Positions 29,906 to 45,214 of a stretch of 45,884 bases of DNA are shown piece after piece. The DNA comes from Microcaldota archaeon. Lineage in GTDB: Archaea > Micrarchaeota > Micrarchaeia > Micrarchaeales > CABMGC01. Every line of letters starts with the position of its first letter. Position 1 is the stretch's first letter. The notes under the pieces are model-generated. The model searched no databases and was not told the origin of the DNA. It saw only the letters and a list, made by a program, of their open reading frames with translations. Made by a program: the position numbers and the translations under genes. Where the stretch lies: contig JAJZKO010000001.1 of the NCBI GenBank assembly GCA_021850805.1, forward strand, positions 1 through 45,884. Reading direction: 5' to 3'.

Positions 29906-30505
29906 ATGACAATATCCAATGTAGTAAGGATGTATTTGAAAAGCAAGCCCTACACGCTTGAGGCGCTGGATAGCGGGATAGTGAATTACAGCGCTCTTTC
30001 AAGGCTAATGCAGAAGCAGCTCGGGATTAAAAACTATCAGGCTATAAAAGCGGCAATACGTAGATATGCTGAGGACAGAGAAGTTCTTAGGGAGGGCATA
30101 GAGATGCGCGCCCTTGGCATACTCAGGGAAAACAGGATGGCACTCCTTGATGGAGTGAGGGTCATAATATCCACTGGTGATCTGGAGATTGAGAGCGATG
30201 CCAAAGTGAAGATGGACGACTATTACATATACCTGACAAGGAAAGACGTGCTCAAGTCCCTGGACAAGAAAGCAAGGAAAAGCCTTGTAAAAGTAAGGGA
30301 TAGCTGTTCTGCGATTATAATATATTCTGAGGAGGGAATTGAAGGCGCCTCAGGTGTTATAGCCTTCCTCGCATCACTTCTGGCAGAGCAGAATATCAAC
30401 GTAGTAGAATTCATATCCTGCTACACCGAGACGATAGTAGTAGTCAGCAAGGAAGACTCACTGAGAAGCTATTCTCTTCTTGCAGAAGTAATATCATCCC
30501 ACTAG
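29906..30505 (+). CDS. ACT-domain regulator with N-terminal HTH-like region
   Basis: 199 aa; C-terminal GASGVIAFLASLLAEQNINVVEFISCYTETIVVVSKEDSLRSYSLL resembles ACT; divergent from argG. Confidence 0.6.
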   Translation: MTISNVVRMYLKSKPYTLEALDSGIVNYSALSRLMQKQLGIKNYQAIKAAIRRYAEDREVLREGIEMRALGILRENRMALLDGVRVIISTGDLEIESDAKVKMDDYYIYLTRKDVLKSLDKKARKSLVKVRDSCSAIIIYSEEGIEGASGVIAFLASLLAEQNINVVEFISCYTETIVVVSKEDSLRSYSLLAEVISSH

Positions 30506-30523
30506 TCTCGTTCTTGCAGAATA

Positions 30524-30746
30524 CAAAAAATAAATTGCAGGACCAGATGGCCTGCACATGAGGGTCAACGCCAAGAGTTAAGCACACGGACAGCTAAGGC
30601 GAAGAGCCACTTACGCAGTCACGCCCTGTTACCATGCGCTTTCCTTCCCAGCTTTCCTGCACGCGGATCCAATTGCTTGATGACCAATGAAGCGCAGAAC
30701 CGCGCAACAGAACAATACTTTCCTTCAGGCATCCGCATCACCTTGA
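30524..30746 (-). ncRNA. unassigned structured RNA candidate (~220 nt)
   Basis: No ORF; minus-strand TATA (TATATATAAG) at ~30767-30775; 3' hairpin TGCAGG/CCTGCA followed by TTTTTT; several internal stems. Confidence 0.45.
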
Positions 30747-30920
30747 TAATCTTATTTTGGTTTTGCTTATATATACGCCTTTTATCTTCAACGTCTTATG
30801 TCTAATCGAAGCAGAAGCTGCAGTAAGCGCTGCGCCTATCATCTTCTACGTCAAGGTAGAACCAATTTATTAGGATATGCCCATAATATTCTGTTGAGGA
30901 TTTATCTGAGGCAGGATTCA

Positions 30921-31466
30921 ATGGATATAGTCTTTGTGACATCTAATAAGAATAAGGTACGCGAAGCTAGGATGATTCTTAATGGCTCGGGTATAAGGCT
31001 AAAGGTTGTTCCTGAAGAACTTGATGAGATGCAGTCGCTGGATGTGAAGGCAGTTGCCGCGGATAAGGCGCGCAGGGCTTACGATATGACAAAGATGCGG
31101 ATTATCGTGGAAGATACGGGTTTCTTCTTAGAGTGCTGGAATGGGTTCCCTGGAGCTCTTGCAAAACACATGCAGACGACCATAGGCAACAAAGGAATAG
31201 TGGCCTTGGTAAGCAAAAACAACCGGAATGCTTATTCAGAAACGGCAGTGGCGTACTGCGACGGACATACTACGAAATTATTCAGCGGCAGAGTTGCAGG
31301 GAGCATCTCTGAGGAGGCACGTGGCACAGAAGGATTTGGATGGGATTTTATATTTATCCCAAAAGGGGAGAGTAGGACTTTTGCTGAACTTGGCATGGCT
31401 GAAAAGAATAGATTATCGGCAAGAGCCGTAGCCTTCAGGAAGCTTAGGGATTATCTGACGCGATAA
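30921..31466 (+). CDS. XTP/dITP diphosphatase (Ham1/RdgB family)
   Basis: MDIVFVTSNKNKVREA, VEDTGFFLE, GFGWDFIFIP; ORF track starts 41 codons upstream (30798). Confidence 0.9.
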   Translation: MDIVFVTSNKNKVREARMILNGSGIRLKVVPEELDEMQSLDVKAVAADKARRAYDMTKMRIIVEDTGFFLECWNGFPGALAKHMQTTIGNKGIVALVSKNNRNAYSETAVAYCDGHTTKLFSGRVAGSISEEARGTEGFGWDFIFIPKGESRTFAELGMAEKNRLSARAVAFRKLRDYLTR

Positions 31467-40272: not shown

Positions 40273-41493
40273 TCAGCTGAAAGCCTCAAAATCTTTTCCG
40301 AGCACTTCCTCGGCAATCTTAAGCTCGAGTATCTCGTCTGTGCCTTCGTATATGCGTGAGACCCTGCTGTCGCAGAAGAGCGCGCCCACTGGTGAGAGAA
40401 GCGAGTATCCGAATCCGCCGTAGACCTGCACCGCCCTGTCTGCAGACTCGAAGGCGAGCCTTGATGCGATCTTCTTCGCCAGGGCAGTTCGCAGTTCGGC
40501 TTCCTCTATAAGAGCTTTGTTTGAGGGATCCTTTTCGTACTCAGCACGCTGCATTGCAGCCATATAAACAGGCCATCTCGCCATCTCGAGGTTTTCGCGT
40601 ATCTCCGCTATGTGGCGCTGTATGAGCTGGTGCTTCCCTATGAGCTTCCCGTGCTGCACCCTCTCCTTCGCCCTCGAGACTACCGCCTTGAGGGAGCCCT
40701 CTATTACACCGATGCATCCGGAAGCCACTCCTAAGCGGCCGTTAAGAAGGGCGGAATAGGCGACATGCATGCCCTTGCCTTCTTCGCCGATGAGGCCTGA
40801 ATCTGGAACCCTTACATCCTCAAGTTCTATCATGCCTGTATCTGATGTAAATAGGCCTATCTTCTCCCTTAGTTGCATCCTGTTTACCCCGCTTGATTTC
40901 GTATCGGTTATTATTGCGCTTATCTGCTTTGGGTTTTCCGAGTTCCTTGCGAAGATTATTATGTGATCGGCTATTGAGCCGTTGGTTATCAGGTACTTTG
41001 TGCCATTGAGGACGTATTCGGATCCCTCCTTTGTGTATGTAGTCTTCATTGCCGTTGGTTCGCTCCCCGCTTCTGGTTCTGTGAGACCGAAGGCTAGCAC
41101 TATATCGTTGTTCAATGCCTTATTCAGGTACCTTTTCTTCTGCTCCTCTGTGCCCCACTTCTGTATAGTAAGCGAGGTTAGGAATACCTGAACATTGTAG
41201 AAACTTGAGAAGCTCATCCCAAGCTGGCCAAGGCGCTCTTTTGCCAATACCGCTATGAGATGCGTGGAACCGCTGCCTCCGTATTCTTCCTTTATTGGTA
41301 TCCCAAGCAGGCCGTATTTCTTTGCGGTTTTGGGCGCGTCGAAGTTCACCTCATGTTTTACATAGTGCTCAAACTCCATCTCCGCCATCTCTTCTGCTGC
41401 CTTGTCCGCGTTCTCAAGTATTGAGAGTTCCTTCTCGGTGAACTTATGAACATGCCCGAGATCCTCTATAGATTTTGCAAATATCTCTTCCAT
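40273..41493 (-). CDS. acyl-CoA dehydrogenase (copy 1)
   Basis: 406 aa; FGLTEPEAGSEPTAM, VYGGFGYS, SRIYEGTDEI. Confidence 0.93.
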   Translation of the reverse strand: MEEIFAKSIEDLGHVHKFTEKELSILENADKAAEEMAEMEFEHYVKHEVNFDAPKTAKKYGLLGIPIKEEYGGSGSTHLIAVLAKERLGQLGMSFSSFYNVQVFLTSLTIQKWGTEEQKKRYLNKALNNDIVLAFGLTEPEAGSEPTAMKTTYTKEGSEYVLNGTKYLITNGSIADHIIIFARNSENPKQISAIITDTKSSGVNRMQLREKIGLFTSDTGMIELEDVRVPDSGLIGEEGKGMHVAYSALLNGRLGVASGCIGVIEGSLKAVVSRAKERVQHGKLIGKHQLIQRHIAEIRENLEMARWPVYMAAMQRAEYEKDPSNKALIEEAELRTALAKKIASRLAFESADRAVQVYGGFGYSLLSPVGALFCDSRVSRIYEGTDEILELKIAEEVLGKDFEAFS

Positions 41494-41496
41494 GGC

Positions 41497-41952
41497 CTAT
41501 TCCTGCTTTTTGCCCTCAAGCCTTAGCTTGGCGTTTGAGATTATCTCCTTTATCTTCTCTTCGCTGATTTTCTTTATTACGCTTTCGCTGATGCCGCTTA
41601 CGAGGCCGCTTATCTGGGCCTCTGCGCTCCACTTTATCCTTGATTTATTCTCTTCCACACTTTCAATGCCCATTGAGAGCTTTATGTTAACCGTGCTTCC
41701 TACCCCTGCGCCGCTTATCTCGTATACAAACCTGTTCCCTTCGTGCTCCGCAAGCTTTCCCGTTATCTTAAATGTGCCGCTTATCATTGCAACACCTACA
41801 CGCACATCTAGAGAAAAGGTCTTGCTATCTTTGCAGGATACGTTTGATGCATCGGGGACGCATTGTGCGATTTCGTATGGGTTGGATATGAAATTATTTA
41901 CCTCGGTTACTGGCACTGCGATATCCACATTGTCATTGAATAGTATTCTCAT
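41497..41952 (-). CDS. CoxG/SRPBCC-superfamily protein
   Basis: 151 aa; ISNPYEIAQCVPDASNV ... GTFKITGKLAEHEGNRFVYEISGAG pattern. Confidence 0.7.
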   Translation of the reverse strand: MRILFNDNVDIAVPVTEVNNFISNPYEIAQCVPDASNVSCKDSKTFSLDVRVGVAMISGTFKITGKLAEHEGNRFVYEISGAGVGSTVNIKLSMGIESVEENKSRIKWSAEAQISGLVSGISESVIKKISEEKIKEIISNAKLRLEGKKQE

Positions 41953-43175
41953 TATTCAAACGCCTCGAAGCCTTTTCCCAGGACGCCTTCTGCTATTTTC
42001 AGTTCCATTATCTCGTCTGTGCCTTCGTATATGCGTGAGACCCTGCTGTCGCAGAAGAGCGCGCCCACAGGTGCGAGAAGCGAGTATCCGAATCCGCCGT
42101 AGACCTGCACTGCCCTGTCTGCAGACTCGAAGGCGAGCCTTGATGCGATCTTCTTCGCCAGGGCCGTCCTGAGATCCATCTCCTCGGTAAACGTTCTGTC
42201 TGATGGGTTCTTGTCGTACTCGGATTTACGGAGGGCGGCAGAATATGTAGGCCATCTCGCCATCTCGAGGTTCTCGCGCATCTCCGCTATGTGGCGCTGT
42301 ATGAGCTGGTGCTTCCCTATTAGCTTCCCGTGCTGCACCCTCTCCTGCGCCCTAGAGACTGCCGCCTTGAGGGAGCCCTCTATTACGCCAATGCATCCGG
42401 AAGCTATACCAAGCCTGCCGTTTAGGAGAGCAGAATAAGCTACGTGCATGCCCTTGCCCTCTTCGCCGAGTATGTTTTCTTTCTCTGCGTGCAGATTTTC
42501 TAACCTGAGCATTGCAGTATCTGAAGTGAATAGTCCTATTTTTTCATGAAGGTTCATCTCCACGCTGAATCCGTTCTCTTTTGTCTTGACCAGGAACGCG
42601 GTTATGGATTTGCCATCCTCTTCTGACTTCGCAAATATGATTATGTGGTCGGCTATTGAGCCGTTGGTTATCAGGTACTTTGTGCCATTGAGGACGTATT
42701 CGGATCCCTCCTTTGTGTATGTAGTCTTCATTGCCGTTGGTTCGCTCCCCGCTTCTGGTTCTGTGAGACCGAAGGCTATTATGGATTTCCCATGCGCGAG
42801 AGGCTTGAGGCACGCTGATTTCTGCTCCTCTGTGCCCCACCTTGCAAGGCTTGAGGCGCCTATGAATATGTTCACATCGTAGAATGTCGGGAAGCCCAGG
42901 CCAAGCTGCCCGAACCTTTGATTGACAAGGACTGCTGAGAGGAGTCCTGAGCCGCTGCCACCGTACTCCTCGCTTATCGGAAGGCCAAATAGACCGTATT
43001 TCTCCGCAATCCGTATATAATCAGGATTCACTTCGTGGTTAAGATAATGCTGAAACTCCGAGCCTGCGAGTTCCTCAGCCGCCTGATCTGCTAGCTCTGC
43101 AGCCCTCATCTCCTTCTCCGAGAGCTTGTGTATCCTTTCTATATCTTTTAGTGCAGCGCTGAAGTTCTCTTCCAT
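41952..43175 (-). CDS. acyl-CoA dehydrogenase (copy 2)
   Basis: 407 aa; paralogue of 40273..41493 with same motifs. Confidence 0.93.
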   Translation of the reverse strand: MEENFSAALKDIERIHKLSEKEMRAAELADQAAEELAGSEFQHYLNHEVNPDYIRIAEKYGLFGLPISEEYGGSGSGLLSAVLVNQRFGQLGLGFPTFYDVNIFIGASSLARWGTEEQKSACLKPLAHGKSIIAFGLTEPEAGSEPTAMKTTYTKEGSEYVLNGTKYLITNGSIADHIIIFAKSEEDGKSITAFLVKTKENGFSVEMNLHEKIGLFTSDTAMLRLENLHAEKENILGEEGKGMHVAYSALLNGRLGIASGCIGVIEGSLKAAVSRAQERVQHGKLIGKHQLIQRHIAEMRENLEMARWPTYSAALRKSEYDKNPSDRTFTEEMDLRTALAKKIASRLAFESADRAVQVYGGFGYSLLAPVGALFCDSRVSRIYEGTDEIMELKIAEGVLGKGFEAFE

Positions 43176-43184
43176 ATATTCATC

Positions 43185-44294
43185 TCATTCCTTGCCCTTT
43201 CTTATGTTTAGACCGCTGGCTCCTGTATACCTTGAGCTTGGGCGTATCAGCTTGTTGTTTGATACCTGCTCGATGTAATGCGCTGTCCATCCGAAGCATC
43301 TCGAGGATGCGAATATGGGCAGATAGAATGCCTCGTCTATCCCAAGAAGGTACATGTATATTGCGGCGTAGAAATCGAGGTTAGCAGGTATCTTCTTCCT
43401 CTCCCACATCTCTTTTTCCATCTCTATGGCTATATCATACAGCTCCTTGCGGCCTTTGGCCTTGGAGAGCTCCAGCAGCTCCTTCTTTATGAACTGCGCT
43501 CTAGGATCCACCTTCTTGTATACCCTATGACCGAAGCCCATTACCTTCTCTTTGCGGGAGAGTTTGTACTCCATGAATTTCCTCGCGTCGTCACGGTTCT
43601 GCGCCTTGAGCATATATTCCAGCACTTCCGAATTTGCACCCCCGTGAAGCGGCCCTTTTATAGTTGCAAGAGCGGCAACTATTGCTGACCTTGGATCCGT
43701 AAGTGTAGATGCGGCAACCCTCAAGGCAAAGGTGGATGCATTGAATTCATGCTCCATGTACATCACAAGCAGCTTCTCGAAGTATCGCGCGTCTTTTTTG
43801 TCAGCTTTTCCTGTAATAAGGTAATAGAATCTTTCTGCAAGGCTTCCGTCAGGTTCCGGCAGTGTATCAGTTCCCCTCGAATATCTGAATGCATCGGATG
43901 ATATCCTTGGCATCTTTGCGGCTATCTCAAGCAGTACCTTGTCGTTCTCTTTTTCTTCGATATGCATAAAGGATACGGTAGAGCGCATGCTGTCTATTAT
44001 CTTTGGCCTTCCCGATGATATCTCCCTTAGAATGGAATCGCTCTTCTTATCAAGACTTGCTCTTTCACTTAGAAATCCTGAAAATTCCTTAAGCTCATCT
44101 TTAGATGGAAGCTTCCCGTATACGACAAGATATGCAGTCTCCTCGTATGCGAGCTTCTCGGCGAGCTCTATCGCGTGGTAGCCGCGATAGATGAGTTCTC
44201 CTTCGGCATCGGTGGAGGATATCGCAGTCGTATCTACTATAACTTTATCCAGCCCTTTTGGTACGTCTATACCTGTGTTTTCCATTCCTATCAC
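43185..44294 (-). CDS. prpC: citrate/2-methylcitrate synthase
   Basis: 369 aa; IKGPLHGGANSEVLEYM, VMGFGHRVYKKVDPRA. Confidence 0.85.
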   Translation of the reverse strand: MIGMENTGIDVPKGLDKVIVDTTAISSTDAEGELIYRGYHAIELAEKLAYEETAYLVVYGKLPSKDELKEFSGFLSERASLDKKSDSILREISSGRPKIIDSMRSTVSFMHIEEKENDKVLLEIAAKMPRISSDAFRYSRGTDTLPEPDGSLAERFYYLITGKADKKDARYFEKLLVMYMEHEFNASTFALRVAASTLTDPRSAIVAALATIKGPLHGGANSEVLEYMLKAQNRDDARKFMEYKLSRKEKVMGFGHRVYKKVDPRAQFIKKELLELSKAKGRKELYDIAIEMEKEMWERKKIPANLDFYAAIYMYLLGIDEAFYLPIFASSRCFGWTAHYIEQVSNNKLIRPSSRYTGASGLNIRKGKE

Positions 44295-45214
44295 CTCTTT
44301 GTACTAATTTTCCCTGAGCCGCCGGCCGATGCTCCGCCATAAAGCTTCCGGTCTTCAGCGGTGTAAGAATCATACCCTATGGTTCCATAGAACGAATCCC
44401 TATCCATGAGCTTGTCCAGCATGCCCTCCTGGCCGCCATGCTTAAAGATATATGAATACGTATCTTTCATCGAGAGAAGGGACGCCCGGAAAGCGGTCAG
44501 CGGAAATATTATTATCCTGTAACCCATTCTCCCAAGTTCCTGCGCGGATAGCAGAGGGCTCTTTCCAAATTCAGTCATGTTTGCAAGCAGCGGCAGGTGC
44601 GTATCTTCGTAGAACTTTTTGAATTCCATTGCGCTTGGGAGAGCCTCCGGAAATATGATGTCAGCGCCTGCCTTGATGTAGGCGTGTGCCCTGTGCACTG
44701 CCCCGCGGTGCCCCTCTATTGCGTATGAATCCGTTCTTGCTATAATCATGAAGTCTTTGTTTTTCCTTGCGGAGACGGCAGCCTCTATCTTCTTCACCAT
44801 GTCATCCTCAGGTATCACACTCTTCCCATCCAGATGCCCGCACCTCTTGGGGGCCTCCTGATCTTCTATCTGCATTGCCGATGCGCCAGAAGACTCTATC
44901 AGCCTAGTGGTTCGTATCACATTGAGTGTCTCCCCGAATCCAGTGTCGGCGTCGACTATGAGAGGAATGCTCGAGATTGAGCATATCCTTGCGGCTTCCT
45001 CAGATACCTCTGTCAGTGTTGTTAAGGAAAGATCCGGAAGACCATACCTTCCGGCTATCCCTGAACCTGAGAGATATGCGGCATTGAATCCTGCCCTCTC
45101 TGCCATTATTGCCGATATCCCATCAAATACTCCCGGAGCCATAACGTATCCTTTAGAGACCAGGCTTCTAAGCCTTCTTGGGCCTTTATTAAGATTATCC
45201 CTAAGCCTTGACAT
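44291..45214 (-). CDS. prpB: 2-methylisocitrate lyase (ICL/PEP mutase superfamily)
   Basis: 307 aa; VDADTGFGETLNV, IEDQEAPKRCGHLDGK. Confidence 0.88.
   Translation of the reverse strand: MSRLRDNLNKGPRRLRSLVSKGYVMAPGVFDGISAIMAERAGFNAAYLSGSGIAGRYGLPDLSLTTLTEVSEEAARICSISSIPLIVDADTGFGETLNVIRTTRLIESSGASAMQIEDQEAPKRCGHLDGKSVIPEDDMVKKIEAAVSARKNKDFMIIARTDSYAIEGHRGAVHRAHAYIKAGADIIFPEALPSAMEFKKFYEDTHLPLLANMTEFGKSPLLSAQELGRMGYRIIIFPLTAFRASLLSMKDTYSYIFKHGGQEGMLDKLMDRDSFYGTIGYDSYTAEDRKLYGGASAGGSGKISTKR

Follow-up and report, generated by a model that had tools for sequence, protein, structure and literature searches.

A possible orphan transcription unit for a short RNA between an ACT-domain regulator gene and a Ham1 gene in a Micrarchaeota archaeon

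The small RNAs found in archaeal RNA-seq surveys include orphan intergenic and cis-antisense species that are short, poorly conserved, transcribed from a promoter of their own and ended by an oligo-T tract. The locus described here would resemble them in being intergenic, short and poorly conserved, with its own archaeal promoter and an oligo-T end, but differs in that the candidate is known from sequence motifs alone and its target is predicted. A second comparison is offered by short orphan mRNAs of small-protein genes, with which the locus shares a promoter, a Shine-Dalgarno sequence at 4-nt spacing from an ATG, 37 codons and a 3' hairpin, whereas the codon usage of its ORF differs from that of the genome's genes and the ORF is without a homologue. 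Archaeal SRP RNA (RF01857) and RNase P RNA (RF00373) are similar to the candidate in length and GC content; among the 79 genomes of the family, the first was found in 67 and the second in 70, and both lie elsewhere in the candidate's own genome, whereas the candidate is unique.

The DNA comes from a bin of 883 kb (84% complete); at the protein level, its closest relatives are MAGs of Candidatus Micrarchaeota. The window, meaning the whole stretch of DNA analyzed (45,884 nt), is contig C16 of this bin. Comparisons were made with the family (79 genomes) and the order (164 genomes), own genome counted in both, and all relatives were outside its own genus.

Our preferred interpretation, held tentatively at a probability of about 0.38, is that the minus strand of the gap between the two genes carries a short transcription unit that is orphan and lineage-specific. 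Its RNA, of about 220 nt, would run from about 30745 to about 30525. A discrete unit on this strand is plausible, since the promoter 14-mer also stands ahead of genes in relatives and an oligo-T end lies between convergent units; the product would most likely be a small RNA that lacks a conserved fold. The features concerned are as follows.

29906 to 30505, plus strand: convergent neighbour, a protein with a DUF7523 N-terminus and an ACT_7 domain (Pfam)
30525 to 30530, minus strand: T6, presumed archaeal oligo-T terminator (from the sequence)
30536 to 30556, minus strand: 3' hairpin of 21 nt, TGCAGGCC-ATCT-GGTCCTGCA (pair probabilities 0.71-0.96)
30525 to 30746, minus strand: putative transcript, about 220 nt, with the promoter at one end and T6 at the other
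30619 to 30732, minus strand: ORF of 37 codons, MPEGKYCSVARFCASLVIKQLDPRAGKLGRKAHGNRA, a possible mini-mRNA (ATG at 30732, stop at 30619)
30766 to 30782, minus strand: promoter AAAGGCGTATATATAAG, composed of the BRE-like AAAGGCG and the TATA box TATATATAAG (from the sequence)
30921 to 31466, plus strand: divergent neighbour, a Ham1-family NTP pyrophosphatase (Pfam Ham1p_like, 2e-46)

The sequence-only reading had described a relatively GC-rich interval between the ACT regulator and the Ham1 gene, and this was borne out. The best 200 nt of the gap 30506-30797 had a GC content of 0.55, the highest among the 14 window gaps of at least 120 nt (the others reached at most 49%). This is comparable to the known RNAs of the same genome, with 0.56 for RNase P RNA and 0.52 for SRP RNA. 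The real start of the Ham1 gene is at 30921; a 41-codon in-frame extension back to 30798 showed non-coding codon usage.

A promoter on the minus strand with a 5' end at about 30745 had also been proposed. The TATA box TATATATAAG was found at 30775-30766, and AAAGGCGTATATATAAG as a whole is a good archaeal BRE/TATA element that predicts a transcription start at about 30745. The window contains two TATATATA sites, one of which is the candidate promoter. The exact 14-mer AAAGGCGTATATAT occurs in eight copies in the 79 family genomes, whereas the same pattern reversed as a control has none. Apart from the candidate's own, seven copies remain, and three of them stand just 5' of clear protein genes (L087, L089 and L090); short ORFs or no obvious ORF were seen downstream of the remaining ones.

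In several genera a palindrome-like sequence, CAATATNNATTG, follows AAAGGCGTATATAT after about 10 nt (L087, L088, L091, L093 and L094, at about 1500 in each), which may point to a separate class of promoters or to an operator. At one of these loci, L087:1530-1645 in genome G011 is a leader of about 100 nt ahead of an SDR dehydrogenase gene, with a long imperfect stem (GGTCGGAAAAGGGCC / GGCCCTTCTCGGCC), and is a possible leader RNA. It had no Rfam match, and a longer stretch of 165 nt folded no better than its shuffles.

At the opposite end, the hairpin TGCAGG (30556-30551) / CCTGCA (30541-30536) followed by T6 (30530-30525) was present as previously proposed, and the hairpin was well supported by its pair probabilities. 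Over the 45.9 kb of the window, the minus strand has nine runs of at least six T, the candidate's among them. A formal terminator scan gave no match because the stem is bulged and separated by 5 nt from T6. If the BRE/TATA promoter fires at about 30745, the RNA would stop at the hairpin and T6 at about 30525, and the oligo-T end would be placed between the convergent units.

Assignment to a known RNA class was examined with Rfam. At the gathering threshold, the whole window yielded two tRNAs and nothing else, and under relaxed conditions (E ≤ 10) no family overlapped the candidate transcript. RNase P, SRP, 5S, tRNA and other Rfam families were thus excluded at both thresholds. Both RNase P RNA and SRP RNA were located elsewhere in the genome: the former (RF00373) at C9:6147-6382 with 97.8 bits, the latter at C5:39232-39469 (locus L003:1501-1738), with about 238 nt and the helix-8 motif CCGGAAGG-AGCA. 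The candidate is therefore neither of them. For SRP RNA, membership was judged by the covariance model (RF01857, clan CL00003) together with the GGAAGG / AGCA helix-8 motif, and the interval gave no match.

One of the Rfam tRNA matches (40 bits) lies on the minus strand of the window at 4-124; it has a large intron-like insertion in the anticodon loop region and is missed by ARAGORN.

Rfam covers the small guide RNAs of archaea poorly, so a known class, such as H/ACA or C/D guide RNA, represented by a member too diverged for the models had to be considered. The genome's real SRP RNA itself scored far below the archaeal threshold and better with the bacterial model (24 bits against 96.5 for Archaea_SRP and 41 against 60 for Bacteria_large_SRP), and the SRP RNA of this family has probably been missed by automatic annotation. 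On the other hand, the minus strand of the candidate has no RTGATGA C box, CTGA occurs once, and the single ACA is internal, with no hairpin-ACA unit obvious by sequence. With SRP and RNase P RNA accounted for elsewhere and the relaxed Rfam search blank inside the candidate transcript, such a guide RNA is considered very improbable.

The minimum free energy of the candidate was -74.6 kcal/mol, corresponding to a z-score of -0.73 to -0.8, and 48 of 200 shuffled sequences were equally stable. Random 223-nt windows of the same contig gave a mean z of -0.2 ± 1.3. When the best sub-windows were compared with 44 background regions, those of 60 nt were unremarkable (16 of 44 regions as good) and those of 150 nt were mildly good (5 of 44). 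For the genuine RNAs of the same genome, z was -0.89 for SRP RNA and -3.4 for RNase P RNA. The SRP RNA value implies that the z of the candidate is compatible with a functional RNA, yet it gives no support for one.

Every half-stem named in the sequence-only reading was found at its position. For the proposed three-way junction, these included GCGGATGCC (30736-30728) with GGATCCGC (30670-30663) and TGAAG (30727-30723) with CTTCA (30692-30688). The closing helix of the junction, however, reached a pair probability of just 0.17-0.18, although its cost when forced was a mere 1.4 kcal/mol.

In blastn searches, no convincing homologue of the candidate was detected in the 78 other family genomes or in the order (163 genomes besides its own), nor was any match found among phages and plasmids. 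The exact 21-mer of the 3' hairpin was absent from viral contigs, and a single-sequence covariance model of the candidate 3' domain (R1) matched its own locus only. Some weak blastn matches involved the promoter, the T-run or a purine-rich stretch; they were rejected because they proved to be either other genes' promoters or short stretches, mostly inside long open frames. The same blastn procedure recovered RNase P RNA in 70 and SRP RNA in 67 of the 79 family genomes, and since these controls were so readily recovered, the complete absence of the candidate is unusual. The earlier designation as a structured RNA gene was not upheld, as the folding energy is at chance level and no homologue was found in the 163 genomes. 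Lack of conservation among relatives, which the sequence-only reading had set as grounds for refutation, is what the searches showed. Without a homologue, covariation has no alignment to work on, and a claim of a conserved family fails for now. Most likely the stretch gives a species-specific small transcript and is not a novel structured RNA with conserved relatives.

Four loci of other genera carrying the same promoter (L087, L088, L093 and L094) were inspected as relatives, since by eye they showed an AAGG start after the promoter and, in L088, TGCAGGCCATC. All four failed the shuffle test, their alignments with the candidate giving a local z of at most 1.2. Model R1 missed all of them, its best chance-level match (E = 0.05) lying elsewhere. 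In the sister genome G028, read over about 690 kb, the two genes that flank the L088 interval were both present without it.

A new, fast-evolving class of Micrarchaeota small RNAs would be a further explanation, its members sharing the BRE/TATA promoter AAAGGCGTATATAT and a long-range stem of GGATG-CCTG (5') with CAGGCCATC (3') and drifting in sequence so fast that neither blastn nor a covariance model built from one sequence would see them. In the test of such a shared-promoter family, the possible 5'-3' closing stem had a probability of 0.05, and we regard this class as a long shot.

The adjacency of the ACT and Ham1 genes was not kept in relatives, and beside either gene no equivalent RNA was found there. 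A 484-nt gap ahead of Ham1 in genome G043 (L057) was checked as an equivalent locus and proved unrelated. In one relative (L036:3594 onward), a pair of IS200/IS605-like transposase genes lies directly 3' of the gene for the ACT protein, which suggests that this spot is a rearrangement point.

The unshared adjacency, the zero conservation in searches that easily recovered true RNAs, and the chance-level folding speak for a functionless spacer, i.e., a decayed gene or a rearrangement scar whose promoter is real and still active, or was so in the past, and whose stems are those usual for 220 nt of GC-rich DNA. What such a spacer accounts for less well is a promoter, hairpin and T6 in correct order and spacing, together with a GC content above that of every other gap. 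This explanation is judged rather unlikely, although it and an orphan mini-mRNA are close rivals of the orphan transcription unit.

The description of the interval as ORF-free was inexact, and it passed over a translated mini-ORF as an alternative reading. An ORF extends on the minus strand to the stop at 30619, with 37 codons from the ATG at 30732 or 40 codons from an alternative GTG start at 30741. The predicted RNA contains ATCAAGGTGATGCGGATGCCT at its 5' end, and the Shine-Dalgarno match AGGTGAT (30743-30737), 7 bases long, stands 4 nt 5' of the ATG. We take AGGTGAT to be complementary to the tail of archaeal 16S rRNA; a search of the bin (84% complete) with a 16S 3'-end pattern gave no match. 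The transcript could then be a short mRNA for an orphan basic protein of 37 residues, with a normal promoter, a short leader, a Shine-Dalgarno sequence and a 3' hairpin terminator.

Of the 1847 ATGs of the window, 6 have a match of at least 7 nt. Two of the 6 are true gene starts; one of these, that of the gene at 43185-44285, has GAGGTGAT at the identical 4-nt spacing. The position of the ORF, opening about 13 nt downstream of the predicted transcription start, is equally in keeping with an mRNA. Its codon score of -0.17 per codon is unlike that of a gene: real genes score 0.26 ± 0.17, about 2.6 sd higher, and the value is typical of off-frame sequence (-0.23 ± 0.19); codon usage was non-coding in every frame of the core interval. 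Nor did the 78 other family genomes offer a credible homologue, as the weak matches to the small ORF either lay in other genes in a different frame or were due to chance. The frames tested had no Pfam match, and a pseudogene was rejected on the same result. By a crude estimate, the gain from the Shine-Dalgarno match (about 25-fold for) and the loss from codon usage (about 23-fold against) roughly cancel, and the mini-mRNA is considered quite unlikely.

The orphan transcription unit is favored by a promoter 14-mer common to promoters of the family, the terminal hairpin with T6, the GC content of 0.55, the non-coding codon usage, the blank Pfam result in the frames tested and the lack of plus-strand oligo-T from the ACT stop to 30746. 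Against a small RNA as its product stand the lack of any relative in family or order, the chance-level folding, and a strong Shine-Dalgarno sequence with an ORF at the predicted 5' end, which suggests an mRNA.

On the plus strand, no T5 run occurs for more than 250 nt past the ACT gene, so that ACT mRNA ends would overlap the candidate RNA and be fully complementary to it. Pairing with the overlapping ACT mRNA end would be the likeliest action of the small RNA, a proposal derived from geometry only. The simplest mechanism may be a cis-antisense effect on the mRNA of the ACT-domain regulator or mere transcriptional isolation of the two genes.

If transcribed, the locus would add an orphan small RNA, or a mini-mRNA, to those of the DPANN archaea, whose transcripts have been little mapped. 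In our search, literature joining Micrarchaeota with non-coding-RNA transcriptomics was limited to incidental mentions.

Farther along the window, at 40273-45214 on the minus strand, genes for citrate synthase, a protein of the PEP mutase/isocitrate lyase family and two acyl-CoA dehydrogenases were found, with a CoxG-like protein between them. The cluster resembles methylcitrate or short acyl-CoA metabolism, which is unexpected in a reduced DPANN genome.
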